From Rickettsiales bacterium (lineage in GTDB: Bacteria > Pseudomonadota > Alphaproteobacteria > Rs-D84): 35,994 bases of DNA. The stretch lies in the NCBI GenBank assembly GCA_031263295.1, contig JAISGC010000057.1:1-35994 (forward strand). The letters are read 5' to 3'. Below are positions 1-35,994 of the stretch, one piece after another. Numbering within the stretch: position 1 is the first letter of the stretch; each line of letters begins with the position of its first letter. A program made the position numbers and the translations under genes. Below the pieces are notes generated by a model that saw nothing but the letters and a program-made list of their open reading frames with translations, made no database searches and was not told the origin of the DNA.

Positions 1-4
1 AGCT

Positions 5-195
5 GGTGTTCCCCTCCTTTGGAGGGGTGGCATTTTGCGAAGACACGAAGTGTCGTAGCAAAATGACGGGGTGGTGTGTCCAACGGGCACAGCTCGTTAT
101 CGCCACCACCCCGCCGCCTTCGGCGGCACCCCTCCAAAGGAGGGGAACACCCGTTGGACGGCACGGCCAAGAGAAACAAAAACAGGGAGAAAACT
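5..195 (+). repeat. Palindromic repeat family A, inverted pair plus leader, copy 1
   Basis: GTGTTCCCCTCCTTTGGAGGGGTGG...GACGGGGTGGTG followed by the inverted CCACCACCCCGCCGCCTTCGGCGGCACCCCTCCAAAGGAGGGGAACAC. The leader aacaaaaacagggagaaaa(c/a)tATG is shared with copy 2 at 31973-32165. Confidence 0.85.
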
Positions 196-735
196 ATGAA
201 AAAGTTCAATTATCAAAGTGCAAAGTTCAATGATGGCTTGCGGGAGCGCAGAGGCGCATTCGGCAAGCTATCATTGAACTTTGCAATTTGCACTTTGTTA
301 TTTTGCGGCGACGCAGTCGCCGCAAAGCTTTGCATGCGAAATCCGCCGAACGGCGGGAAGTTCACCAGAAACCCGACCGCGAATATCTGGGCCAACGGGC
401 CCGACTGCATGACCTGGTCGACCGGCGAAAACAGCGTTTCGGCCGAAACCGACCCGATGAAGCTCTGCCCGAATGTCAAAATGCACGGGGAATCGCGTTT
501 CATTTGGTTTTATAATGCAGCCGGGGAAAATCGGCCCGTCGCCGGAGAAAGCGCGAGCACCGAACCGGAGAAAGGCAGTTGCCTCTGCAAGATAAACTAT
601 CCTTTCCAAACGAAGTGGTTTCTGGTCGGACCGGACTATAATAGTTCCAATACCTGCAACCGGTGGTGCGGCAGCCTGTCGGTCCGTCCGAGCGACAGAA
701 ACTTTATAAAATATATCGGATTGGGGTTTGATTGA
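196..735 (+). CDS. Small secreted Cys-rich protein; signal peptide encoded within a heptamer-repeat hairpin
   Basis: ATG at 196 follows AGGGAG. N-terminus MKKFNYQSAKFNDGLRERRGAFGKLSLNFAICTLLFCGDAVAA|KLC has an AxA-like site. The mature part resembles the 32166-32603 protein (AK(L/M)C, A-x-IWANG, C-x-C, C-x3-C spacing). Confidence 0.75.
   Translation: MKKFNYQSAKFNDGLRERRGAFGKLSLNFAICTLLFCGDAVAAKLCMRNPPNGGKFTRNPTANIWANGPDCMTWSTGENSVSAETDPMKLCPNVKMHGESRFIWFYNAAGENRPVAGESASTEPEKGSCLCKINYPFQTKWFLVGPDYNSSNTCNRWCGSLSVRPSDRNFIKYIGLGFD
212..297. repeat. TGCAAAG-type heptamer hairpin, copy 1, inside the CDS
   Basis: Left arm caaagtgcaaagttcaatgat; right arm atcattgaactttgcaatttgcactttg. The right arm is identical over 26 nt to that at 20371-20396. 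Confidence 0.85.
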
Positions 736-3770: not shown

Positions 3771-3862
3771 TTAATGACTAATGACTAATAACTAATGTCT
3801 AATTACTAATAAAATGCCGCCGATTAGACACTAGTAATTAGTCATTAGTTATTAGTCATTAA
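3771..3862. repeat. TAATGAC heptamer hairpin
   Basis: taatgactaatgactaataactaatgtctaattactaat ... attagacactagtaattagtcattagttattagtcatta. Confidence 0.88.
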
Positions 3863-11091: not shown

Positions 11092-12611
11092 GCCCAGATT
11101 TCGAGAATCTGGTCGCGGACGGATTGGATTTGGGCGGCAGGGGCGGATTCGGAAATCATTGCGTCCAGCTGCTTTTTAAGCGCGATTTCGCGAATGACCT
11201 TTTTCGCCGTTTCCTCTGTCATCCTTGATTCGTAAGGATCGGAGGGGTCGGCCGCGCCCAAAAGCTCGAAGTTGTCGCCGTAAAGCTCCGGGAACTTTCG
11301 CGCGATTTCATTCACAAGGTGCGCGGCGCGGTCGGTCGGATCGGGCGCCCGCATCTCCGGCTTTATTTCGCGGCGGTATTTGTTCCACTGCTCCCATTCT
11401 TTGTTTTTAAGGACCAGAAGGTATTCGTTCTTTAACATCAGGTCCGGGATTTTTTCGTATTCCGCGCGGAGCCACCGGTCCGCGTTCACCCGGCCGCTTT
11501 CGGTCATAACCGGATAATTGTTATTCGCGAGCGTCCAGACGAAATCGGGAAGCGCCGCGGCCGCGTTTATTATCGGATCCATCGAGCCGCCCGCCGTCAG
11601 GATTTCGTCCGGGTCTTTGCCGCCGTCTACGAAAGCAAATCTTATCGTATGCTCGGCTTTCAGCAGCGGCATAACCAGGCCCGCCGCCCGCGCCGCCGCC
11701 TTTTGCCCTGCGGTGTCGCCGTCGAAGCAGAAGACCAATTCTTTCGCATATTTCAGTAATATTTCGATGTGCTCCGCGGTCAGTGCCGTGCCCAAGGGCG
11801 CGATGGTTTCGCCGTATCCGTGCGTCTGCATCTGCATGCAATCTATTTGCCCCTCGACCACAATCGCGCGTTTTTTCAGCCGGATTTCGGGCAGGGCGAA
11901 GTTGATTCCAAATAGCGTTCGCCTTTTGGCGAAGAACTCGGTTTCGGCTATGTTCATATATTTGGGCTCGCTGCCGTCAAGCGACCGGCCCGAAAACGCG
12001 ACCACGCGGCCGCGGATGTCGATTATCGGAAACATCAATCGGTTGCGGAAAAAGTCATAGTCCGCGCCGCCGTGGGTCGAATGGCGGGTCAGCCCGGCCG
12101 CCAATCCGTCGGGGCCGAAGCGGGCGGCGACGGGGCTGTTTTTCGGAGCATATCCGAGGCCGTATTTTTCGACGACCGCCGCGGGAAGTTTCCGACGCGC
12201 CAAATATTCCGCCGCCGGGGAGCCGGGCAGGGCGGCGATATAGATATTCATGGCCGCCGCCATCGTGTCGAAATATTTATTCTCGCGGGATTCTTCTTCC
12301 GGGTCGCGGGGGCGAAAATCGGGCATTTTCATTCCGGCGATTCCGGCCAGCTCCTTTATCGCGTCGATGTATCCCATTCCGAACTTTTTCATTAAAAATG
12401 TTATGACATCGCCGCCTTCGCCGCAGCCGAAGCACTTGAAGATTCCGCGCTCTTCGGAGACCGAAAAACTCGGCGTCTTCTCGTTATGAAACGGGCAGCA
12501 GCCCCACCAGTTCTGGCCCTTGGGTTTCAGCGGCACCGACCGGCCGATTATGTCCACGATGGACACGCGGCTTTTGAGCTGTTCGACGAAGGGTTTTAGG
12601 TTTTCGGACAT
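11088..12611 (-). CDS. dnaG: DNA primase
   Basis: CCPFHNEKTPSFSV, zinc-binding N-terminus, FSGRSLDGSEPKYMN, EGQIDCMQMQTHG, FCFDGDTAGQKAA. Confidence 0.95.
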   Translation of the reverse strand: MSENLKPFVEQLKSRVSIVDIIGRSVPLKPKGQNWWGCCPFHNEKTPSFSVSEERGIFKCFGCGEGGDVITFLMKKFGMGYIDAIKELAGIAGMKMPDFRPRDPEEESRENKYFDTMAAAMNIYIAALPGSPAAEYLARRKLPAAVVEKYGLGYAPKNSPVAARFGPDGLAAGLTRHSTHGGADYDFFRNRLMFPIIDIRGRVVAFSGRSLDGSEPKYMNIAETEFFAKRRTLFGINFALPEIRLKKRAIVVEGQIDCMQMQTHGYGETIAPLGTALTAEHIEILLKYAKELVFCFDGDTAGQKAAARAAGLVMPLLKAEHTIRFAFVDGGKDPDEILTAGGSMDPIINAAAALPDFVWTLANNNYPVMTESGRVNADRWLRAEYEKIPDLMLKNEYLLVLKNKEWEQWNKYRREIKPEMRAPDPTDRAAHLVNEIARKFPELYGDNFELLGAADPSDPYESRMTEETAKKVIREIALKKQLDAMISESAPAAQIQSVRDQILEIWA

Positions 12612-12670
12612 TTGAGTTCGAGTTTGAGTTTGAGTGGAGCTCGACTCAAACTCCAACTCGAACTCAAACT
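12612..12670. repeat. GAGTTY hexamer hairpin between dnaG and topA
   Basis: ttgagttcgagtttgagtttgagtgg agctcg actcaaactccaactcgaactcaaac. Confidence 0.85.
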
Positions 12671-14936: not shown

Positions 14937-16091
14937 TTATCCTCCCTTGGCGGAAAGTTGCAAATCCCTATGCACCCAGCAGTTCTGCACCAGTCCGAAG
15001 CCGAACATCAGCGATAGTAGCGCCGAGCCGCCGAAACTAAACAGAGGCAGCGGCACGCCGACGGTCGGAAGCAGCCCCATATTCATACCTATGTTTATAA
15101 AGTAATAGGCGAACCAGTTTATCGCGAATCCGAATATCATCAATTGCGCGTATCGGGATCGGCACAATCGCGCCATTCTGTAAAGCATTATCGCGATTCC
15201 GAAAAAAAGCCCGAGCAAAACTATGCCGCCGAAAAAGCCCAACTCCTCCCCCGTCAGCGTCCATATGAAGTCCGTCTGCTTTTCGGGCAGGAACTGGTTC
15301 TGGCCCTGGGTGCCGCGGGCGAATCCTTTGCCCGACATTCCGCCCGAGCCGAAGGCTATTTTCGCCTGCGTTATCTGGTATCCGGCCCCCTTCGCGTCGT
15401 GGTCCGGGTTCACGAATGTTATTATACGCGCGCGCTGATATGGATGCATCGCCGTATGCCATACGACCGGCGCGGCCAAAATCGCCGCCATCGCCGCGAT
15501 AACGAACCAGTTTTTATTCGCGCCGACAATAAAGAACATACATACGATTTGCAGCGCCAAAGTCATACCTGTTCCGAGGTCCGGCTGGGCGACTATGAAC
15601 GCGAACGGAATCAGAAAGAGCAGGGTGGGAATCGCGTAGTTTTTAATCTGCGAAACCTGGCCCGAGTTATACCAGGCGAAGTATCTGGCCAGCACCAGCG
15701 CGAGCGTTATCTTTATGAACTCGGAGGGCTGAATCGTAATGAATCCGAGGTTCAGCCATCTTTGCGCGCCCATTCCGGTGTGCCCTATGAAGTTCACGGC
15801 CACAACCAGCAGAACCGCGATTCCGAAATAAAAATAGGCGAACTTTATCCATGTCTTTATGTTCGACGCCGCGACCGCGAAATATACGACCAGGCCGAGC
15901 GCTATTTTCCCAAGCTGCGGCAAGACATAGGGCCCTACCTTGCCGCCGCCCGCCGAATAGAGCATAACCAACGAATATCCGAGCAGGCAGAATATCAATA
16001 GCGTCAATGGCCACGACATCTGGCGGATGCGCTCGGCGACGCCGATATTCTCGCTCCGCGCGGTCCTGGTGTGGAATAGATTTTTAGACAT
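14937..16091 (-). CDS. rodA: Rod shape-determining protein RodA (SEDS family)
   Basis: Multi-TM; AQRWLNLGFITIQPSEFIKI, FAIVAQPDLGTGMT, FLPEKQTDFIWTLTGEELGFFG, GVPLPLFSFGGSALL. Confidence 0.95.
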   Translation of the reverse strand: MSKNLFHTRTARSENIGVAERIRQMSWPLTLLIFCLLGYSLVMLYSAGGGKVGPYVLPQLGKIALGLVVYFAVAASNIKTWIKFAYFYFGIAVLLVVAVNFIGHTGMGAQRWLNLGFITIQPSEFIKITLALVLARYFAWYNSGQVSQIKNYAIPTLLFLIPFAFIVAQPDLGTGMTLALQIVCMFFIVGANKNWFVIAAMAAILAAPVVWHTAMHPYQRARIITFVNPDHDAKGAGYQITQAKIAFGSGGMSGKGFARGTQGQNQFLPEKQTDFIWTLTGEELGFFGGIVLLGLFFGIAIMLYRMARLCRSRYAQLMIFGFAINWFAYYFINIGMNMGLLPTVGVPLPLFSFGGSALLSLMFGFGLVQNCWVHRDLQLSAKGG

Positions 16092-16100
16092 AGCTTTTAT

Positions 16101-16224
16101 AGAGAATAAGAGAATAAGAGAATAAGAGAATAAGAGAATGGAACTTGCGGAGTCGCAAACGCCATTCTCTTATTCTCTGCAAACGCGAAGCGTTTGCATT
16201 CTCTTATTCTCTAATTCTCTTTCT
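16101..16224. repeat. GAGAATAA octamer hairpin between rodA and mrdA
   Basis: agagaataag x5 then agaATGGAACTTG...CCATTCTCTTATTCTCT plus an inner cgcaaacg/cgtttgc repeat. Confidence 0.88.
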
Positions 16225-19642: not shown

Positions 19643-20401
19643 CTACTTCGTTATTTTTTGCACGGCGGAAGGGAACGACGCCGGCGGCACGCCGGTGCAT
19701 TCGGCGATTCTTGCGCCGCGGTCGGACAGGTCGATTTTTTTATCCGCGACGGCCTGCTCCGCGGCCAATTTCTGGCGAATAAGGCGCATCTGCGGCCCGG
19801 TCGACAACTGCTTTTCGATTCCGTCCATGGCGGCGGGGATGCCGGATTCGCTTTCGACGAAAACTGGCAGTATCTGCGCCGCGGCGGCCGCAAGCGATTT
19901 TTCTATGTCCGCGCGGTTTTCGCGGACGGCCGTCAAATGCGCCGCTATGTGCTCGTCCTCGTGAGCCGCAATCGCGAGCCACTCGCAGGATTCTTCTTTG
20001 TAGCGCCGGTCGATGAAAACGGAGAAATCCGAAAAGCCGATGGTCGCGGTTATTTTTTCTGGAAACACGCACCACCCGCCGCCCGCGTCCGGGCCTTCGC
20101 CATCCGAAGGATGGCTTCGGGTGGCAGGCCGAGCCGCAAAATCTATCTCGTATTCCTCGGAGAGGTTCGCCACAACCTTGCCGTGCAGAAGGCCTATGTC
20201 GACCTCGGACGGGAAAACCGCGACCGAAACGCTCGGCTCCTTGATTTGCAAGGACGGGACGGATTTATAGCGGGAGCATTCGTCGGCGAAAGCCGGCTGA
20301 ATTAGCAAAGTGCAAATTGCAAAGTTCAATGTAAGCCTGCCGAATGCGCGCAGGCGTTTTAACAAGCCGTCATTGAACTTTGCAATTTGCACTTTGCACA
20401 T
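19643..20401 (-). CDS. Secreted protein with HExxH-type motif (HEDEH); signal peptide encoded by a repeat hairpin; coupled to virB4
   Basis: ATG (20401-20399) overlaps the virB4 stop as TAATG. MCKVQIAKFNDGLLKRLRAFGRLTLNFAICTLLIQPAFA|DEC...EWLAIAAHEDEHIAAH. Confidence 0.75.
   Translation of the reverse strand: MCKVQIAKFNDGLLKRLRAFGRLTLNFAICTLLIQPAFADECSRYKSVPSLQIKEPSVSVAVFPSEVDIGLLHGKVVANLSEEYEIDFAARPATRSHPSDGEGPDAGGGWCVFPEKITATIGFSDFSVFIDRRYKEESCEWLAIAAHEDEHIAAHLTAVRENRADIEKSLAAAAAQILPVFVESESGIPAAMDGIEKQLSTGPQMRLIRQKLAAEQAVADKKIDLSDRGARIAECTGVPPASFPSAVQKITK
20072..20124. repeat. In-frame palindromic insertion in the HEDEH protein
   Basis: CCACCCG...GCCATCC-gaa-GGATGGC...CGGGTGG nested inverted repeat; encodes ~18 aa (ATRSHPSDGEGPDAGGGW). 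Confidence 0.6.
20305..20397. repeat. TGCAAAG-type heptamer hairpin, copy 2, inside the CDS
   Basis: Arms GCAAAGTGCAAATTGCAAAGTTCAATG / CATTGAACTTTGCAATTTGCACTTTGC are perfect 27-nt reverse complements. Confidence 0.92.
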
Positions 20402-22827
20402 TATTCCCGATCCTCGACCTGCCGCAGGTAATGCTCGACGAAGTCGTTTCCGAACTGCTTGTAAAGGTCTTCGGCCAAGAGGACCGAGGGACGGCCGCTC
20501 TCGAATAATTTCAACAGGTTTCCGAGCCCGCCCAATTCGGTGTTCAATATGACCGACTCCCCGGTTATCGGCCGCGAAATCAAAATCGCCCGTTTGAGGT
20601 TCGGATAGGCCTGGCCCCTTATAAACGCCATTTCCGTCGGGTTCAGTTTCCAATAGCTGTAATCGTCGCTGGTCGCCGCGGGATTGCGGAAGAACATTAT
20701 CGTCTGCGCCTGGCCGCGCACCACATCGCCCATTCCGAGTTTGTCCAGGACATTCGCGCGCTGGAAGGCGGCCATAAACGCCTGGCGATTCTTGCGGCCC
20801 TCCTGCAATCCCGTGATAAAATTATCCCGGAACATCTTATTTTCCAGCATCGGCGCGGTTTCGTCTATCATTATCAAGGCCGGATTTCCGCCCGAAACCG
20901 TTATCGAGTTTATCCGATGCAGTATGTATGAGATAACCGCGGGCGCGAGCACAGGGTCCGCCAAAACATCGGTAAAGTCGAATGTGGTCAGCCGCGAAAA
21001 CAGGTCGAGAGTATCTTCGGTTTCGTTGAACACGCCGCCGTATTGGAGCGGGTCTATCCATTTTTTCAAGGCGCCGCGGACATTGCCGCCCGACGAGAAG
21101 CAGGCTATGTGGAGATTTTTCAAGAGTTTTTCTTTATCCGGCAAGTAATCGAACACCACCGAAACCGCGCGCGCTATTTCGTCCAAGTCGTCCGGCGAGT
21201 TGGTGTACGCGTGCATTCCGAGCCATCTTCGCAGGAACGCCCGGTTAGATTCCGTGTCGTCCATTTTCAACGGATTCAGGCGCGCGTTGAATCCGCCAGA
21301 TATTTTCTCCGCGTTCTCGGATTTATTTTCAAGGCCTATGTATTTGCCGCCCGCCGCAAGCGTAAATATCTCGGCGCCGCGGTTCCTGTCGAAAAAGAAA
21401 GCCTTTAATTTCGGATGCCGCAAAGACTGCGCTATCAAAAATGAAAACAGCGTCGTTTTTCCGCCGCCGGTCGGTCCTATGACCAAGGTGTGTCCGACCG
21501 CACCCGGGGCGTCCGAGACATGGAACTGGAATCTATACGGCGTGCCGCTGCTGGTCGGGAAAACCGCAATCGGGCCGGGGCCCCAGTCCGAGTTCTCGGT
21601 TCCGGACGGCACATTATTCATTGGAATGGTCGCCGCCGCGGCCGCCGACAGCAGATTGAATCCGCGCGGAAAATCGTTGAATCCCGGCATCGCCGCAAAG
21701 AACGCGGATTTGGCCGCTATGCTTTCGACCACCGCCGCGACGCCGAACTCGGCCGCGATTTTCTTCATTTCCGCGACCGCCGCATCGACAGCCTCCGCGG
21801 TTTCGCCCAGCACTTGGAACGACGGGTAAAAGTTCGCGAAGACCTGGTTGCCCGATATGTTCTCGTCCACCTGCATATAGGCCGCGTCTATCTGCTGCTC
21901 CACAATCTCTTTGCTGTTCTGGTTCGATGTCTCGGACGATTTTTTCCGGCGCAAAAGCTTTTCCATATTGTTCGCATTATGCACGGACAAGGCCGACATT
22001 ATTATCATCTCGCTCTGGACGCCCGCGATATTCTCGAAAAAATCCGCATCCATAAAGTCCGGGGCGAACTTGAACGAAACCATCCGCGCGTATTTCTCCG
22101 CGCCGCCGAAGTTATACCTTATGAATCCGTCCGGCATAAAGTCAACATTGTCGGTCGAGACCAAGGATCCCATATTCTCGTCCGCGCGCGAAAGGTTCGG
22201 CGCCGAAATCGGTGAAAGTATTTTCGCGTAAAGCGCGGCGATATTGTCCGGCTCGTTATGGTGGAGCAATTTGATTCCGAACGCCGACAAGACCGACAGA
22301 ATCATATTCGTATGGTTGTCGATTTTCTCCAACGCGTCGGCGCCCGCCGCGGTCAGAACAAGATAATTTCTGTTCTCGAATATTTTCAGGCCCTGGCGCC
22401 GCCAGCGGTTGTATATCCTTTGCAGGATATTCTGGTCGAACTCGTAATCGTAATTCTGCGGGGATCGGGTGCGGATTGTGAAAAAGCGCAGAATCGCGTC
22501 GTCCCGTATCTGGTTGAACAGCATCTTTTTCTGCTCGAACAAGCGCTCTTTGCCCGCCTCGTCCAGCATTCCGTTCTGGACGCCGGTAATAGAAAAAGCG
22601 CGCGCGACGGACCCATCCTTTAACCGGACCGAGGCGTTATCAGGCAATATGGAATCGAACGGCAGATAATCAGAATATCTCTTGTATCCGAATATCGGAA
22701 AAAATACCCGGCCGAGCACGGGCAGATAAAACAGCAGCACCAGAAAAACAAGCAGGCCGAGCCCGGCGAACAATCCCGCCGTCATAGACAAATCGTTTTT
22801 CGTGAAAAAGTCAAAAAATTGTTCCAT
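20401..22827 (-). CDS. virB4: Type IV secretion system ATPase VirB4
   Basis: Walker A VIGPTGGGKTTLFSFL; PALIMIDETAPML Walker B region; 808 aa; adjacent to VirB3-like. Confidence 0.88.
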   Translation of the reverse strand: MEQFFDFFTKNDLSMTAGLFAGLGLLVFLVLLFYLPVLGRVFFPIFGYKRYSDYLPFDSILPDNASVRLKDGSVARAFSITGVQNGMLDEAGKERLFEQKKMLFNQIRDDAILRFFTIRTRSPQNYDYEFDQNILQRIYNRWRRQGLKIFENRNYLVLTAAGADALEKIDNHTNMILSVLSAFGIKLLHHNEPDNIAALYAKILSPISAPNLSRADENMGSLVSTDNVDFMPDGFIRYNFGGAEKYARMVSFKFAPDFMDADFFENIAGVQSEMIIMSALSVHNANNMEKLLRRKKSSETSNQNSKEIVEQQIDAAYMQVDENISGNQVFANFYPSFQVLGETAEAVDAAVAEMKKIAAEFGVAAVVESIAAKSAFFAAMPGFNDFPRGFNLLSAAAAATIPMNNVPSGTENSDWGPGPIAVFPTSSGTPYRFQFHVSDAPGAVGHTLVIGPTGGGKTTLFSFLIAQSLRHPKLKAFFFDRNRGAEIFTLAAGGKYIGLENKSENAEKISGGFNARLNPLKMDDTESNRAFLRRWLGMHAYTNSPDDLDEIARAVSVVFDYLPDKEKLLKNLHIACFSSGGNVRGALKKWIDPLQYGGVFNETEDTLDLFSRLTTFDFTDVLADPVLAPAVISYILHRINSITVSGGNPALIMIDETAPMLENKMFRDNFITGLQEGRKNRQAFMAAFQRANVLDKLGMGDVVRGQAQTIMFFRNPAATSDDYSYWKLNPTEMAFIRGQAYPNLKRAILISRPITGESVILNTELGGLGNLLKLFESGRPSVLLAEDLYKQFGNDFVEHYLRQVEDRE

Positions 22828-25377: not shown

Positions 25378-26384
25378 AAACTATAAAAATATCCGGCGTA
25401 GGTGTTCACAGCGGAAAAAAATCCGTTATGGAAATAACGCCGACCAAATCCGGCGGCATAGTTTTTGTCCGTGACGGCGTTCGCATTCCGGCGAGATTCG
25501 ACAATGTCGGAAATGCCATGTTGAGGAACACCACCATCGGGACCGCGCCGAACGAAGTCCAGACCATCGAGCATCTGATGGCGGCGCTTTTCGTTTCGGG
25601 CGTCGCCGACTGCGAGATAAAAATCGATAATTCCGAGACGCCGATTCTGGACGGCTCGGCCGCGGAGCTGATAAAATTATTAAAACCAATTGCGGAAAAA
25701 AGCCGGGCGCCATACCTTGTTATAAAAAAGCCCGTCATTGCCAGGCAGTCTGAATCGATGAAAAAAATGCCGGTCCTTTTGAGGTTTTTATCCAAAACAG
25801 CCGGGTTTTTTAAGGGGCGAAAACTGGACGGATGGGTCGGGTTGTCGCCGGTCCGCGGGCGCAAGTTGGAGGTCGCTGCGCGCCTTATATATAAGGAGAG
25901 GATTATCGGCGACCAATCGTTCGGCTTTGTTTTCGATTACGACGACTTCGCGAAATCGGCCGCCGATTTTGCGAAAAATATCGCCCGGTCCCGGACCTTC
26001 GGAAAGGCCGGGGAATGGGAATGGTTGAAGGCGCATGGAATGGGCCGCGGCGTCGACGAGACGAATGTCATAGCGCTCGGCACAATCGGCGATTTGGAGC
26101 GGCTGCATAAAATCGGAATCGGGAAAGGCATAAAAAAAAGCGCGTTGAAGGCGCGCGGCGAAAACGAGGTCGTCGCGCTGAACGGGCTGTTTTATCCCGA
26201 CGAGTTCGTCCGGCACAAAATCATAGACGCGGTCGGCGACCTTTACACATCGGGCTTCCGCATAGTCGGAAAGCTTGAATCATACAAGGGCTCGCACGCT
26301 ATGAACAATATCGTTCTTCGGAAACTTTTCGCCGACCCGGAGAATTATGATATAATTTCAGAGAATAAGAGAATAAGAGAATAA
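25374..26384 (+). CDS. lpxC: UDP-3-O-acyl-N-acetylglucosamine deacetylase
   Basis: GVGVHSGK, QTIEHLMAALFVSGV, PILDGSAAELI, DEFVRHKIIDAVGDLY, GSHAMNN. C-terminus ENKRIRE* is encoded by the repeat. Confidence 0.93.
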   Translation: MKTIKISGVGVHSGKKSVMEITPTKSGGIVFVRDGVRIPARFDNVGNAMLRNTTIGTAPNEVQTIEHLMAALFVSGVADCEIKIDNSETPILDGSAAELIKLLKPIAEKSRAPYLVIKKPVIARQSESMKKMPVLLRFLSKTAGFFKGRKLDGWVGLSPVRGRKLEVAARLIYKERIIGDQSFGFVFDYDDFAKSAADFAKNIARSRTFGKAGEWEWLKAHGMGRGVDETNVIALGTIGDLERLHKIGIGKGIKKSALKARGENEVVALNGLFYPDEFVRHKIIDAVGDLYTSGFRIVGKLESYKGSHAMNNIVLRKLFADPENYDIISENKRIRE

Positions 26385-26478
26385 GAGAATGGAACTTGTT
26401 AAAAGGTTTTTGTTAAAAATTAAAGCACTGCGGTTATCGCAGGCTCCATTCTCTTATTCTCTTATTCTCTTATTCTCT
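26360..26478. repeat. GAGAATAA octamer hairpin cassette, copy 2
   Basis: (gagaataa)n gagaATGGAACTTGTTAAAAGG...GCTCCATTCTCTTATTCTCTTATTCTCTTATTCTCT. Confidence 0.92.
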
Positions 26479-26826
26479 CTTACCGCGTGCAGCAGCCCCA
26501 ACTCGGGCAATATCGACAATGCGACGATTCTAAACTGGGAAAACGATATGGCCACCAACGAGCAGTTCGTCAAAGATCACAAATACTGCCTCGGCGTCGA
26601 CAAGCCGTCCCATATGCCCCGCTCCCGCGTAGCCAAGCTTCTGATGCCGAATGCCGGCGGCCAGATGCCCGACTGGGAGGGCCTTTGGGTCACATTCCAA
26701 TCCAACGAAAATCGCGACATCCCCCAGCGATTCCTGATGTCCGCCCCGCCCGGCACAACCAGCAAGTCCACGGGCGCATACAGAAAATGCATGTTCAAGA
26801 AAGGCTATCTCCTCCGCGCCGAATGA
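26389..26826 (+). CDS. Predicted lipoprotein whose signal sequence is the octamer repeat element
   Basis: MELVKRFLLKIKALRLSQAPFSYSLILLFSLTAC|SSPNSG...; lipobox LTAC; ATG lies 4 nt after the lpxC stop. Confidence 0.78.
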   Translation: MELVKRFLLKIKALRLSQAPFSYSLILLFSLTACSSPNSGNIDNATILNWENDMATNEQFVKDHKYCLGVDKPSHMPRSRVAKLLMPNAGGQMPDWEGLWVTFQSNENRDIPQRFLMSAPPGTTSKSTGAYRKCMFKKGYLLRAE

Positions 26827-28477: not shown

Positions 28478-28608
28478 GAGAATAAAGAATAAAGAATAAA
28501 GAATAAAGAATAAATAGCGGCGCGTTTGCAGGCAGAGCGCATATTGTTGCGTCATAACTTGTCGCCCGTGCATATTTATTCTTTATTCTTTATTCTTTAT
28601 TCTTTATT
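28478..28608. repeat. GAATAAA heptamer hairpin
   Basis: gaataaagaataaagaataaagaataaagaataaat ... atttattctttattctttattctttattctttatt. Confidence 0.92.
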
Positions 28609-28617
28609 AGAAGCATT

Positions 28618-30313
28618 GTTCGACAATAAACAGACATTTCTTGCGCTCGACATCGGGACCGGCGTGGTCCGCGCGTTCGGCGCCGCCGTCAAGGACGGGC
28701 GGGCGCGGCATTTTTCCTTCGCCGCGTCCGGGGGCGCGATCGCCGAAAATATCATGAACGCCGCCGACGCGGTCGAAAGGGAGCTCGGCGTGAAGTTCCG
28801 GGATGCGGCGATAACCGGCAACCTCGGGGCGGTCGAATCGGTTGTCGCCAAAAACGGCGTCGCCTTTCCGCGCGTTCGCGAAATAACCGAGACGGACGCG
28901 TTCAATGCAATCTGCAATTCGGCCGAGGTCCGCGGCAATCCGGGCATGGTCCTGCATCTTATACCGCTGCAATTTTCGGGCGCGGCGGATGCGGCCGATG
29001 GCGAGATGGCGCCGGGGCGGCCCGCCTTCGGGCGAGTCCTTTCGGTCCGGTTCAATATGCTTTTCGTCGACGGCGCCCGCGTGTCAGAAATCAAGCGCGC
29101 ATTGATGTCGGCCTCCATCCGGCCAGTCGGATTCTATGACCCGATTTATTTATTGGGGCTGCGCTATCACCAGAAAAAGCGGACGGAGATTTTCATAGAC
29201 TTCGGCGCATCCTTTATAAAGGCCGGGGTTATGACCGACCGCGGCCTGACCAAGCGGTTCGATGTCGCGGCGCCTGTCTTTTCGACCGACGAGAAAATCC
29301 GGCTGGCCGTTTTGGAGGACGAGCCCATGGGCTCGGACCGCTATGTCGCCGCGGCCGAAAATATCACGCGCCAGGATGTCTGGGACGAATGGGCCGCGGC
29401 GATGGGCGATGCGGTCGATATTATTTTGGAGAGAGCCGCCGCGCCGGGCGCCGCGATTTTCATATCCGGCGCGGGCGGAAACGCGGAGCATATAAAGTCT
29501 CTGATCCTTGAAAACAAAGGATTGGAGAATATTACGATATTGGATGGGTTCGCGGCGGCCGGATCTTTGGCGCTCCGCGGCGCGGGTTCCGCCGAACCGC
29601 GGTCTGCGACTGCCGCAGGCGGCGCCGCTCCGCGGCGGGCACCGCGCCGCGGGCGTCGGCCGCAGGCCGCGGCCGTTCTGCCGAGCGTTCTGAACTGGGA
29701 CATAAACAACGGATGGGTTTATAAGATGTTTCAGAACGCCGGAATAAAGCGGCTGCACATCGATGTGCAGGACGGCTTCTATACCGCGGCCGTTTCGGGC
29801 GGGGTGCCGGAATTGAAAAAAATCCGCGCGTTGTGGAGGGGCGGGATGCAGGTTCATCTGATGGTCGACGACCCGGCTTCGTGGGCGCAGGTCGTTATGA
29901 AAATCGGCGCGGATACTATTATCGTCCAGGCGGGGACGCGGAACGCCGAGGCCGCGATGACGAAAATAAAGCGGGCGGGCAGGCGGGCCGGATTTGCGAT
30001 TTCGCCGGACTTCGACATCAAAAAATTGCCGAGGCTGATGCTCGCGATGGCGGACGAGATAATCGTGCTCGCGGTCGCGCCCGGCCCGAGCGGACAGGCG
30101 TTCGGGGAGGCGGCGCTGGCGCGCATACGCGCGCTGAAAAACACGCGGACGCGATATAGGTTCGATTACGAGATAATCGCCGACGGCGGGATAAATCCCG
30201 AGACCGCGAAACTCTGCCGGGAAGCGGGCGCGGATGCGGTCGTCAGCGGAAGCTTTCTGCGCAACGCGCCGGATTTCCCGTCCGCGGTCGCGGAACTAAT
30301 TCATAATTCATAA
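28618..30313 (+). CDS. FtsA-like / ribulose-phosphate 3-epimerase fusion
   Basis: FtsA-like FLALDIGTGVVRAFGAAV...IFIDFGASFIKAGVM...IFISGAGGNAEHI, then Rpe VLPSVLNWD...KRLHIDVQDG...VHLMVDDP...IIADGGINPETA in one frame without stop. Start uncertain (track gives 28526; TTG at 28618 plausible). Confidence 0.75.
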
Positions 30314-30487
30314 TTCACAATTCATAATTTTCCCCACCCAAGTTTTTCTAAATCTCGCGGGCTTTGCCCGCTCGATAAGAAAAACTTTCCCGCCCCGCTG
30401 GACCCTGCGGGTCCGCGGGGCAGGAGGGAGCGCGACGGCAAGCAACAAATTATGAATTATGCATTATGAATTATGAATTATGAATTG
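30299..30487. repeat. ATTCATA heptamer hairpin surrounding a family C palindrome
   Basis: aattcataattcataattcacaattcataatt ... aattatgaattatgcattatgaattatgaattatgaatt. Confidence 0.88.
30332..30397. repeat. Palindromic repeat family C, copy 1
   Basis: CCCACCCAAGTTTTTCTAAATCTCGCGGGCTTTGCCCGCTCGATAAGAAAAACTTTCCCGCCCC; second copy at 33516-33585. Confidence 0.85.
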
Positions 30488-31820: not shown

Positions 31821-31972
31821 TGCCGTCGGCCGGACCCTCCGGGTCTGTCGCCGGTCCCCGTTTTATGGTCGGGGGGCCGTTCGCGAGCAATCCGAACGGA
31901 ATCATTCATTAGTATGATTTTCGATCCCACCCGACCTATCAGGTTTTTCGATATAGGCCGAGCCTTCCGGCG

Positions 31973-32165
31973 GGTGTTCCCCTCCTTTGGAGGGGTGGCA
32001 TTTTGCGAAGTCACGAAGTGTCGTAGCAAAATGACGGGGTGGTGATGAAGACAGGCACAGCGCGTTATCGCCACCAGTGCGTGGCCGCCTTCGGCGGCAC
32101 CCCTCCAAAGGAGGGGAACACCCGCTTGAAGGCATCGCCAAGAAAACAAAAACAGGGAGAAAAAT
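31973..32165 (+). repeat. Palindromic repeat family A, inverted pair plus leader, copy 2
   Basis: Near-identical to 5-195, including cgaag(a/t)cacgaagtgtcgtagcaaaatgacggggtggtg and leader aacaaaaacagggagaaaa. Confidence 0.88.
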
Positions 32166-32603
32166 ATGAGAAAATTATTTGCCGGAATCGCTCTGGTCCT
32201 TTCAGCACAAGGAGCGGAGAGCGCGAAGATGTGCAGGCTGGATAACTCGGGGATGACATACGCATACAATGCGTCCGCAAAAATATGGGCGAACGGGATA
32301 GGCTGCGGCGATACCGAAAAAAGCGGCGGCGCGGACCAGCTTTGCGCGACGCGAAAGATGTCGGGCGTCGGATGGTGCGCCGAGAAAGGATACACGACAT
32401 ATGGGCCGGCGAATGAAAACGAGGTTGGAAAATACTGCCATTGCAGAATGACTTGGCCGATTGAGGGCAGATGGATTTTGGGCTGGTATACCGGAGGAAA
32501 TAATGACCCGTTCACAGATGCGGCGGCCTGCGCCGCAAAATGCGCGATGGCCTGCGGTGCAGACAGCAGAAGCAATTTATTCTTGTTTATGGTGGCCGTG
32601 TAA
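32166..32603 (+). CDS. Small secreted Cys-rich protein, paralogue of 196-735
   Basis: MRKLFAGIALVLSAQGAESAKMCRLDNSG...ASAKIWANGIGC...YCHCRMTWPIEGRWILGW...CAAKCAMAC; same upstream cassette. Confidence 0.75.
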   Translation: MRKLFAGIALVLSAQGAESAKMCRLDNSGMTYAYNASAKIWANGIGCGDTEKSGGADQLCATRKMSGVGWCAEKGYTTYGPANENEVGKYCHCRMTWPIEGRWILGWYTGGNNDPFTDAAACAAKCAMACGADSRSNLFLFMVAV

Positions 32604-35583: not shown

Positions 35584-35901
35584 ATGGAAAGGTTCGAGAG
35601 TCTTGTTGGATTTTACGGCGCGGTCAAAACCATCGCGTCCGCCGTCTGCGTCGAGAAGGGCGGCATCGACATAGACAACTATGCCGGGCGCTTTTTTATC
35701 GCCGACTTGCTTGAACTTATCGTCGCATACGGCGAGAAGGCTGGCGCGAAAAACCTGGACGCCCTGCGCCGCGAATTGGCCGCCCGCGCCGCCGACATCA
35801 CTCCGACCAACAAGCCGATTTACGAGATGTCGCTTGAAGAGTTTGAGAAGTTTATAGGCGGCGGCTCCGCCGCCGAAGAGAATAAGAGAATAAGAGAATA
35901 A
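35584..35901 (+). CDS. Hypothetical protein
   Basis: Open frame MERFESLVGFYGAVKTIASAVCVEKGG...; C-terminus ENKRIRE* read through the octamer repeat. Confidence 0.6.
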   Translation: MERFESLVGFYGAVKTIASAVCVEKGGIDIDNYAGRFFIADLLELIVAYGEKAGAKNLDALRRELAARAADITPTNKPIYEMSLEEFEKFIGGGSAAEENKRIRE

Positions 35902-35994
35902 GAGAATGGAACTTGTCAAAAGGTTTTTGCATAAAATAAAAGCGGCACGCATATTGCGCGCTCCATTCTCTTATTCTCTTATTCTCTTATTCTC
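35878..35994. repeat. GAGAATAA octamer hairpin cassette, copy 3 (runs to window end)
   Basis: Same architecture as 26360-26478, with homologous loop ATGGAACTTGTCAAAAGGTTTTTGCATAAAATAAAAGCGG. Confidence 0.92.
35906..35994 (+). CDS. 5' end of a predicted exported protein/lipoprotein with repeat-encoded signal peptide (truncated by window)
   Basis: MELVKRFLHKIKAARILRAPFSYSLILLFS..., open to the window edge; same start context as 26389. Confidence 0.55.
   Translation, partial: MELVKRFLHKIKAARILRAPFSYSLILLF

Follow-up and report, generated by a model that had tools for sequence, protein, structure and literature searches.

Protein-coding palindromic repeats with heptamer or octamer arms as probable recruits for signal-peptide cores in a Rickettsiales bacterium

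Rickettsia palindromic elements (RPEs) are palindromes of ~100–150 bp that lie in frame in metabolic genes of an alphaproteobacterium (PMC10969869) and have been listed beside the protein-coding palindromes of Wolbachia and Methanocaldococcus (PMC2996958). Tandem heptanucleotides (TAACTGA and others) are known from Beggiatoaceae, Cyanobacteria, Xanthomonas, and Nostoc, and in Beggiatoaceae many of them are located 5′ of start codons (PMC4679880, PMC4692102), where they have been proposed to act as translational regulators (PMC4679880). In the open-licence literature, we found no paper on signal peptides derived from such repeats and none linking RPEs with signal peptides.

The repeats described here resemble RPEs in that they are palindromes, form several families per genome, and occur in frame in unrelated genes as well as outside genes (PMC10969869, PMC2996958), which makes RPEs the nearest known kind. 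In contrast to RPEs, their arms consist of tandem 7- or 8-mers that read alike in all frames, and, within coding sequence, we observed them mainly at the core of the signal peptides of secreted proteins. Homology to published RPE families is unlikely because of this different arm structure. Palindromic amphipathic repeat coding elements (PARCELs) share the mobile, palindromic, and protein-coding character and the tie to membrane proteins (PMC2996958), but PARCELs are repeated protein domains (DUF285/TIGR02167 profiles) and not signal peptides; neither P0003, the protein at the locus presented below, nor P0001 gave a DUF285/TIGR02167 match in Pfam or NCBIfam. The TAACTGA sets are direct repeats and mostly intergenic, and do not form hairpins of inverted arms within leaders.

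We analyzed a stretch of 35,994 nt (hereafter the window) together with the 987-kb genome to which it belongs and 148 relatives; most of these genomes, if not all, are metagenome assemblies. The locus comprises the following features:

20401–22827, minus strand: virB4 (CagE/TrbE/VirB family, assigned by Pfam)
19643–20401, minus strand: P0003, gene for a predicted secreted protein of 252 aa located 3′ of virB4
20285–20401, minus strand: P0003 leader, 39 residues, MCKVQIAKFNDGLLKRLRAFGRLTLNFAICTLLIQPAFA
20371–20397, minus strand: 5′ arm (gene sense) GCAAAGTGCAAATTGCAAAGTTCAATG, encoding the polar stretch CKVQIAKFN
20332–20370, minus strand: loop, 39 nt, encoding the basic residues KRLRAFGR
20305–20331, minus strand: 3′ arm (gene sense) CATTGAACTTTGCAATTTGCACTTTGC, encoding the hydrophobic core LNFAICTL

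The two arms (27 nt each) are perfect reverse complements within a longer imperfect stem (20300–20331/20371–20402; 32 nt, 94%), and the 5′ arm begins 4 nt past the A of the ATG. The initial annotation had described a perfect 27-nt inverted repeat encoding the P0003 N-terminus, and both its coordinates and its translation (MCKVQIAKFNDGLLKRLRAFGRLTLNFAICTLLIQPAFADEC) agree with ours, as does the overlap of the virB4 TAA (20403–20401) with the P0003 ATG (20401–20399) in TAATG. The RNA fold at the P0003 start reaches −70 kcal/mol (z = −9.25). A chance inverted repeat was rejected, as the arm CATTGAACTTTGCAATTTGCACTTTG occurs 3 times in the window while 0.00 occurrences were expected from window shuffles; across the whole genome, 18 arm matches were obtained, with 0 for a reversed-sequence control. 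P0003 matched no family in Pfam or NCBIfam. The mature part is conserved in the P0003 family, with an invariant HExEH motif, and this HExEH protein 3′ of virB4 is a possible metalloprotease or T4SS accessory protein.

To judge the leaders, signal peptides were scored heuristically from charge and hydropathy together with the cleavage pattern and the alignment to orthologues. The P0003 leader combines an n-region of net charge +5 with the h-region NFAICTLLI (Kyte-Doolittle 2.17) and the c-region QPAFA|DEC, the cleavage site being placed by alignment with orthologues. We infer that this leader would target P0003 for Sec export and be cut at FA|DEC. Among 21 hairpin leaders scored in the same way, the best 9-mer had a Kyte-Doolittle value of 2.1–3.2 and was followed by a short c-region in all cases, and 20 carried a net charge of +2 to +8 ahead of the h-region; the exception is the P0003 leader of genome G016, with net 0 ahead of its best 9-mer. 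By these heuristics, hairpin leaders fit the layout of Sec signal peptides of type I or of lipoproteins (basic n-region, h-region, AxA or lipobox).

Orthologues of P0003 are present in 101 of the 148 relatives, and in those relatives whose locus was read (Candidatus Enterousia family) the gene likewise lies 3′ of virB4. Most orthologues bear ordinary signal peptides. A periodic hairpin leader was seen in 0 of 37 orthologues inside the dominant genus and in 6 of 21 outside it, namely in this genome, G004, G016, G017, G026, and G029, with the respective units CAAAGTG, AAGGGAC, AATGAAC, AATTAAC, AAGGCAT, and AGAGCAT. The inverted-repeat score at the leader was 12–31 in these six and 5–11 in the other orthologues. 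Since the orthologues have different and mostly ordinary N-termini, the comparison shows the hairpin leader of P0003 to be, at the sequence level, a non-ancestral feature; in line with the repeat origin put forward in the initial annotation, the gene downstream of virB4 shares no ancestral leader among relatives. That the N-terminus is simply an ancestral protein sequence with no special repeat was rejected on this orthologue comparison, and with leaders that differ between orthologues and a repeat that is dispersed in the genome we regard this reading as scarcely credible.

The same repeat serves further genes of this genome. All nine genes with an exact or 1-mismatch arm carry it in their leader: P0003 itself, plus eight whose leaders follow the pattern MKKFN(L/Y)QSAKFN...LNFA(I/L)CTL, one of them on a contig that ends within the leader. 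The recurrence of LNFAICTLL at ORF starts elsewhere in the genome, which the initial annotation had anticipated, is thus borne out. Seven weaker arm sites include one short predicted lipoprotein (MKKQSFYLKIIALCTLQIALCSC) and one site within trmD, and the remainder appear to be intergenic. Paralogues from a single secreted family account for most of these nine genes, and two members of that family lie in the window:

196–735, plus strand: Cys-rich secreted-family protein, leader at 196–324, repeat at 201–303
32166–32603, plus strand: paralogue of 196–735 lacking a hairpin, its signal peptide MRKLFAGIALVLSAQGAESA being short and of the ordinary kind

The similarity between the repeat at 201–303 and that of P0003, noted earlier, is real (103 nt, 79%), and no family common to the mature parts encoded at 19643–20401 and 196–735 was detected with Pfam or NCBIfam. 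The family has 38 matches genome-wide. It is large, lineage-specific, and Cys-rich (SP-AAKxC...CxC[KR]...), with highly divergent mature parts, no Pfam match, and few distant relatives among sister genomes. Its hairpin leaders are of five kinds (units CAAAGTT, GAGCAAT, AGAGAAC, AATAAAG, and the octamer AGAGAATA), while other members have ordinary leaders, e.g. MKKLIAILALAATAADAAKLC; nearly all hairpin leaders start after an identical ATGAAAAA. Within one leader type, the leader DNA is 79–84% identical and the mature proteins 17–23%. On a tree of the mature parts with few firm branches, leader type is unclustered (14 changes; shuffled mean 14.6), and the well-supported sister pair L006 and L124 (97/94) combines a hairpin with an ordinary leader. 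Part of the likeness among the leaders of paralogues could stem from duplication with fast-evolving mature parts. A second palindrome, CACCCCTCCAAAGGAGGGGAACACC (window 2–127, 31970–32095, and 840–908), is found upstream of many family members.

Given this predominance of paralogues, the case for independent recruitment rests on P0003, a PilP-like protein, L114, the lipoproteins, and the orthologue comparisons. The window contains one such lipoprotein:

26389–26826, plus strand: predicted lipoprotein with a lipobox leader (MELVKRFLLKIKALRLSQAPFSYSLILLFSLTAC) encoded by an octamer hairpin
26360–26478, unstranded: octamer hairpin AGAGAATAAGAGAATAAG.../...TTATTCTCTTATTCTCT of this lipoprotein leader

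The PilP-like protein has an octamer leader in this genome, AAAAGGAC in G016, and an ordinary leader in most other genomes. The conserved membrane protein L114 has a hairpin leader in this genome only. In G016, hairpins form the leaders of BamB and of three other predicted exported proteins. Two neighboring G016 genes (L351:8207–8947 and L351:9499–10329) encode pilin-like N-termini with hairpin arms just 5′ of the presumed cleavage region.

In a 348-kb sample of this genome, we counted 63 periodic hairpins; about 50 of the 63 are intergenic, each case having been read individually, and eight occupy exported-protein leaders (L105:639, L114:1520, L115:1577, L115:4078, L320:9705, and window 214, 20305, and 26360). 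Leaders make up ~1–2% of the sequence if ~15% of genes are assumed to be exported. These leader counts include hand reading and home-made gene calls: the gene caller for this genome was trained on known window genes, G016 elements were hand-read from open frames, and the hairpin at L105:8478–8552 was excluded because no clear start lies upstream. ‘N-TERM’ flags were dropped for dnaG, fmt, holA, accC, an integrase, the FtsW-like gene (14937–16091), and 28526–30313, all with a normal start 3′ of the hairpin. From sampled stretches, hairpin densities per 100 kb of 18 for this genome and 17.5 for G016 were obtained, along with 0.4 for G004 and 0.5 for G035. Intergenic hairpins with 6-, 7-, or 8-mer arms in the window lie at 2255–2338, 2858–2955, 3779–3861, 12611–12668, 16116–16221, 28481–28608, 30297–30480, and 35878–35994.

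Some copies are found in frame inside housekeeping enzymes, whether cytosolic or membrane-bound. UvrD (L362:6963–9200) and MltG (L353:3692–4831) of G016 contain an in-frame extra ~25–30 aa that is absent in relatives. In this genome, repeat arms lie in frame around seemingly native sequence in MurG (L318:13971–15014) and flank the native KIIYFSPRGK segment in TrmD (L016:1200–2012, C57). As a lead and not a result, MurG and TrmD suggest that each arm can be written on its own, to either side of sequence already present. The TrmD loop is length-variable in relatives (L425–L433; RHAGLDPASMDSGSRADAPVRNDE in G009), and the site resembles an insertion hot spot. Like RPEs, the elements thus occur in many dispersed copies between and within genes and as in-frame insertions relative to element-free orthologues (MltG, UvrD, TrmD, and the P0003 leader). 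Leader copies read by eye revealed no consistent target-site duplication of the kind expected for MITEs. Several loops in this genome have a common core like TTGTTATCGCGC...GCGCAATAACAA despite differing arms, a hint that the elements share a core whose arms can be exchanged.

The structure of the arms bears on what they encode. As neither 7 nor 8 is divisible by three, a regular tandem array reads alike in every frame, and computation for each 7- and 8-mer confirmed that the three frames yield a single repeated peptide. For the 3′ arms, these readings include AHCSLLI for (GCTCATT)n, SVLCSLF for (TCTGTTC)n, SLILLFSY for (TCTCTTAT)n, VHCSLFI for (GTTCATT)n, and LCSMLYA for (CTATGCT)n; the complementary arms read as polar peptides, e.g. 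NREQRTE or DKGQGTR, and the computed array peptides do occur in the leaders. Because the arms are complementary, a purine-rich, polar 5′ arm is paired with a T-rich, hydrophobic 3′ arm. Across 59 non-leader hairpins, hydrophobic open frames amounted to 48 of 77 in 3′ arms and 1 of 57 in 5′ arms, compared with 287 of 2872 (10%) in random segments. In the sample of this genome, units whose 3′ arm contains stops (TTAGTCA, CCCTAAC, and AATTATG) occurred exclusively outside leaders. The CAAAGTT array of this genome is imperfect, with a P0003 3′ arm open in two of three frames and hydrophobic in one, and being less regular it confers weaker frame-proofing at P0003. Ohno’s oligomeric-repeat model reportedly holds that units indivisible by three encode the same peptide period whichever frame is read and are thereby immune to frameshifts; the model is general, and the leaders described here may be a case of it operating today, on the scale of signal peptides.

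Taken together, it is quite probable that protein-coding palindromic repeats have repeatedly been recruited as signal-peptide h-regions and that the P0003 hairpin is one such copy. A hairpin with 7-mer or 8-mer arms would be placed around the ATG or within the opening codons of a gene for a secreted protein, so that the 5′ arm and loop would supply a polar, basic n-region and the 3′ arm the hydrophobic h-region, while the old c-region and cleavage site 3′ of the hairpin would be retained. Within this bacterial family, the repeats would have replaced the signal-peptide core of secreted proteins many times, with units that differ by gene and species, and at P0003 a CAAAGTT-type repeat would now be the signal peptide. 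A 27-bp stem just past the start codon could hinder translation, which counts against this explanation. The initial annotation had argued for a portable export module: a repeat-derived leader is indeed found on unrelated proteins, but not as one module, given five families here and other units in relatives. As the elements are mostly intergenic and some lie in frame inside enzymes, we consider them generic protein-coding palindromic repeats, often recruited as signal peptides, and not a dedicated export module.

Purely selfish palindromic DNA, for which start regions and signal peptides merely tolerate insertion and the peptide is a passive hydrophobic passenger, would account for the intergenic majority of copies and for those in frame in TrmD, UvrD, and MltG, much as Rickettsia palindromic elements occur in metabolic genes (PMC10969869). 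We nevertheless judge it improbable: hairpin leaders have no ordinary h-region, so that the repeat is the sole candidate export signal, exact copies are retained at leaders and have drifted elsewhere, and G004, although nearly hairpin-free (0.4 per 100 kb), has one at the P0003 leader. A regulatory RNA, in which a start-codon stem controls translation or slippage in unit number leads to phase variation and coding is secondary, would fit the high stability of the RNA folds at start codons (z −5.7 to −9.3), the purine-rich 5′ arms in the 5′UTR of several G016 genes, and the regulatory role proposed for heptamers 5′ of starts in Beggiatoaceae (PMC4679880). Against it, the 3′ arm of the scored leaders adds to a hydrophobic stretch with a hydropathy near that of ordinary signals, and families with 3′-arm stops (TTAGTCA and others) are not found as leaders in the sample of this genome; we hold it to be very improbable.

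For the 196–735 family only, leader and upstream region may form a cassette that recombination has carried from one paralogue to another, in which case few insertions are needed. Leaders that are far more similar than the mature parts and unclustered on the tree, together with the upstream ACAGGGAGAAAA-ATG context common to paralogues, speak for it; P0003, the PilP-like and L114 genes, and the differing units of the P0003 orthologues are left unexplained. Such a cassette is possible but rather doubtful, and it is compatible with recruitment of palindromic repeats as a mode of spread inside one family.

We see about an even chance that this recruitment reflects a general, continuing birth route of export signals, in which inverted 7-/8-mer arrays are pre-adapted, frame-proof signal peptides and repeat-rich lineages keep replacing the signals of their secretome; the arms may be written around native sequence instead of being inserted whole. 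If true, such a route would exemplify today what Ohno proposed for coding sequence from oligomeric repeats. Recruitment of the repeats as signal-peptide cores would in itself join selfish palindromic repeats in genes with the origin of signal peptides, two subjects unlinked in the papers we found, and in this small alphaproteobacterium of gut type it offers a simple way for selfish DNA to turn into a functional address tag on proteins. Frame-independence and the opposite hydropathy of complementary strands would predict which repeats are able to serve as leaders and which are not. For genomes of this kind, annotated start sites and secretomes may be in error; our codon-based gene caller placed the starts of several hairpin-leader genes 3′ of the hairpin.
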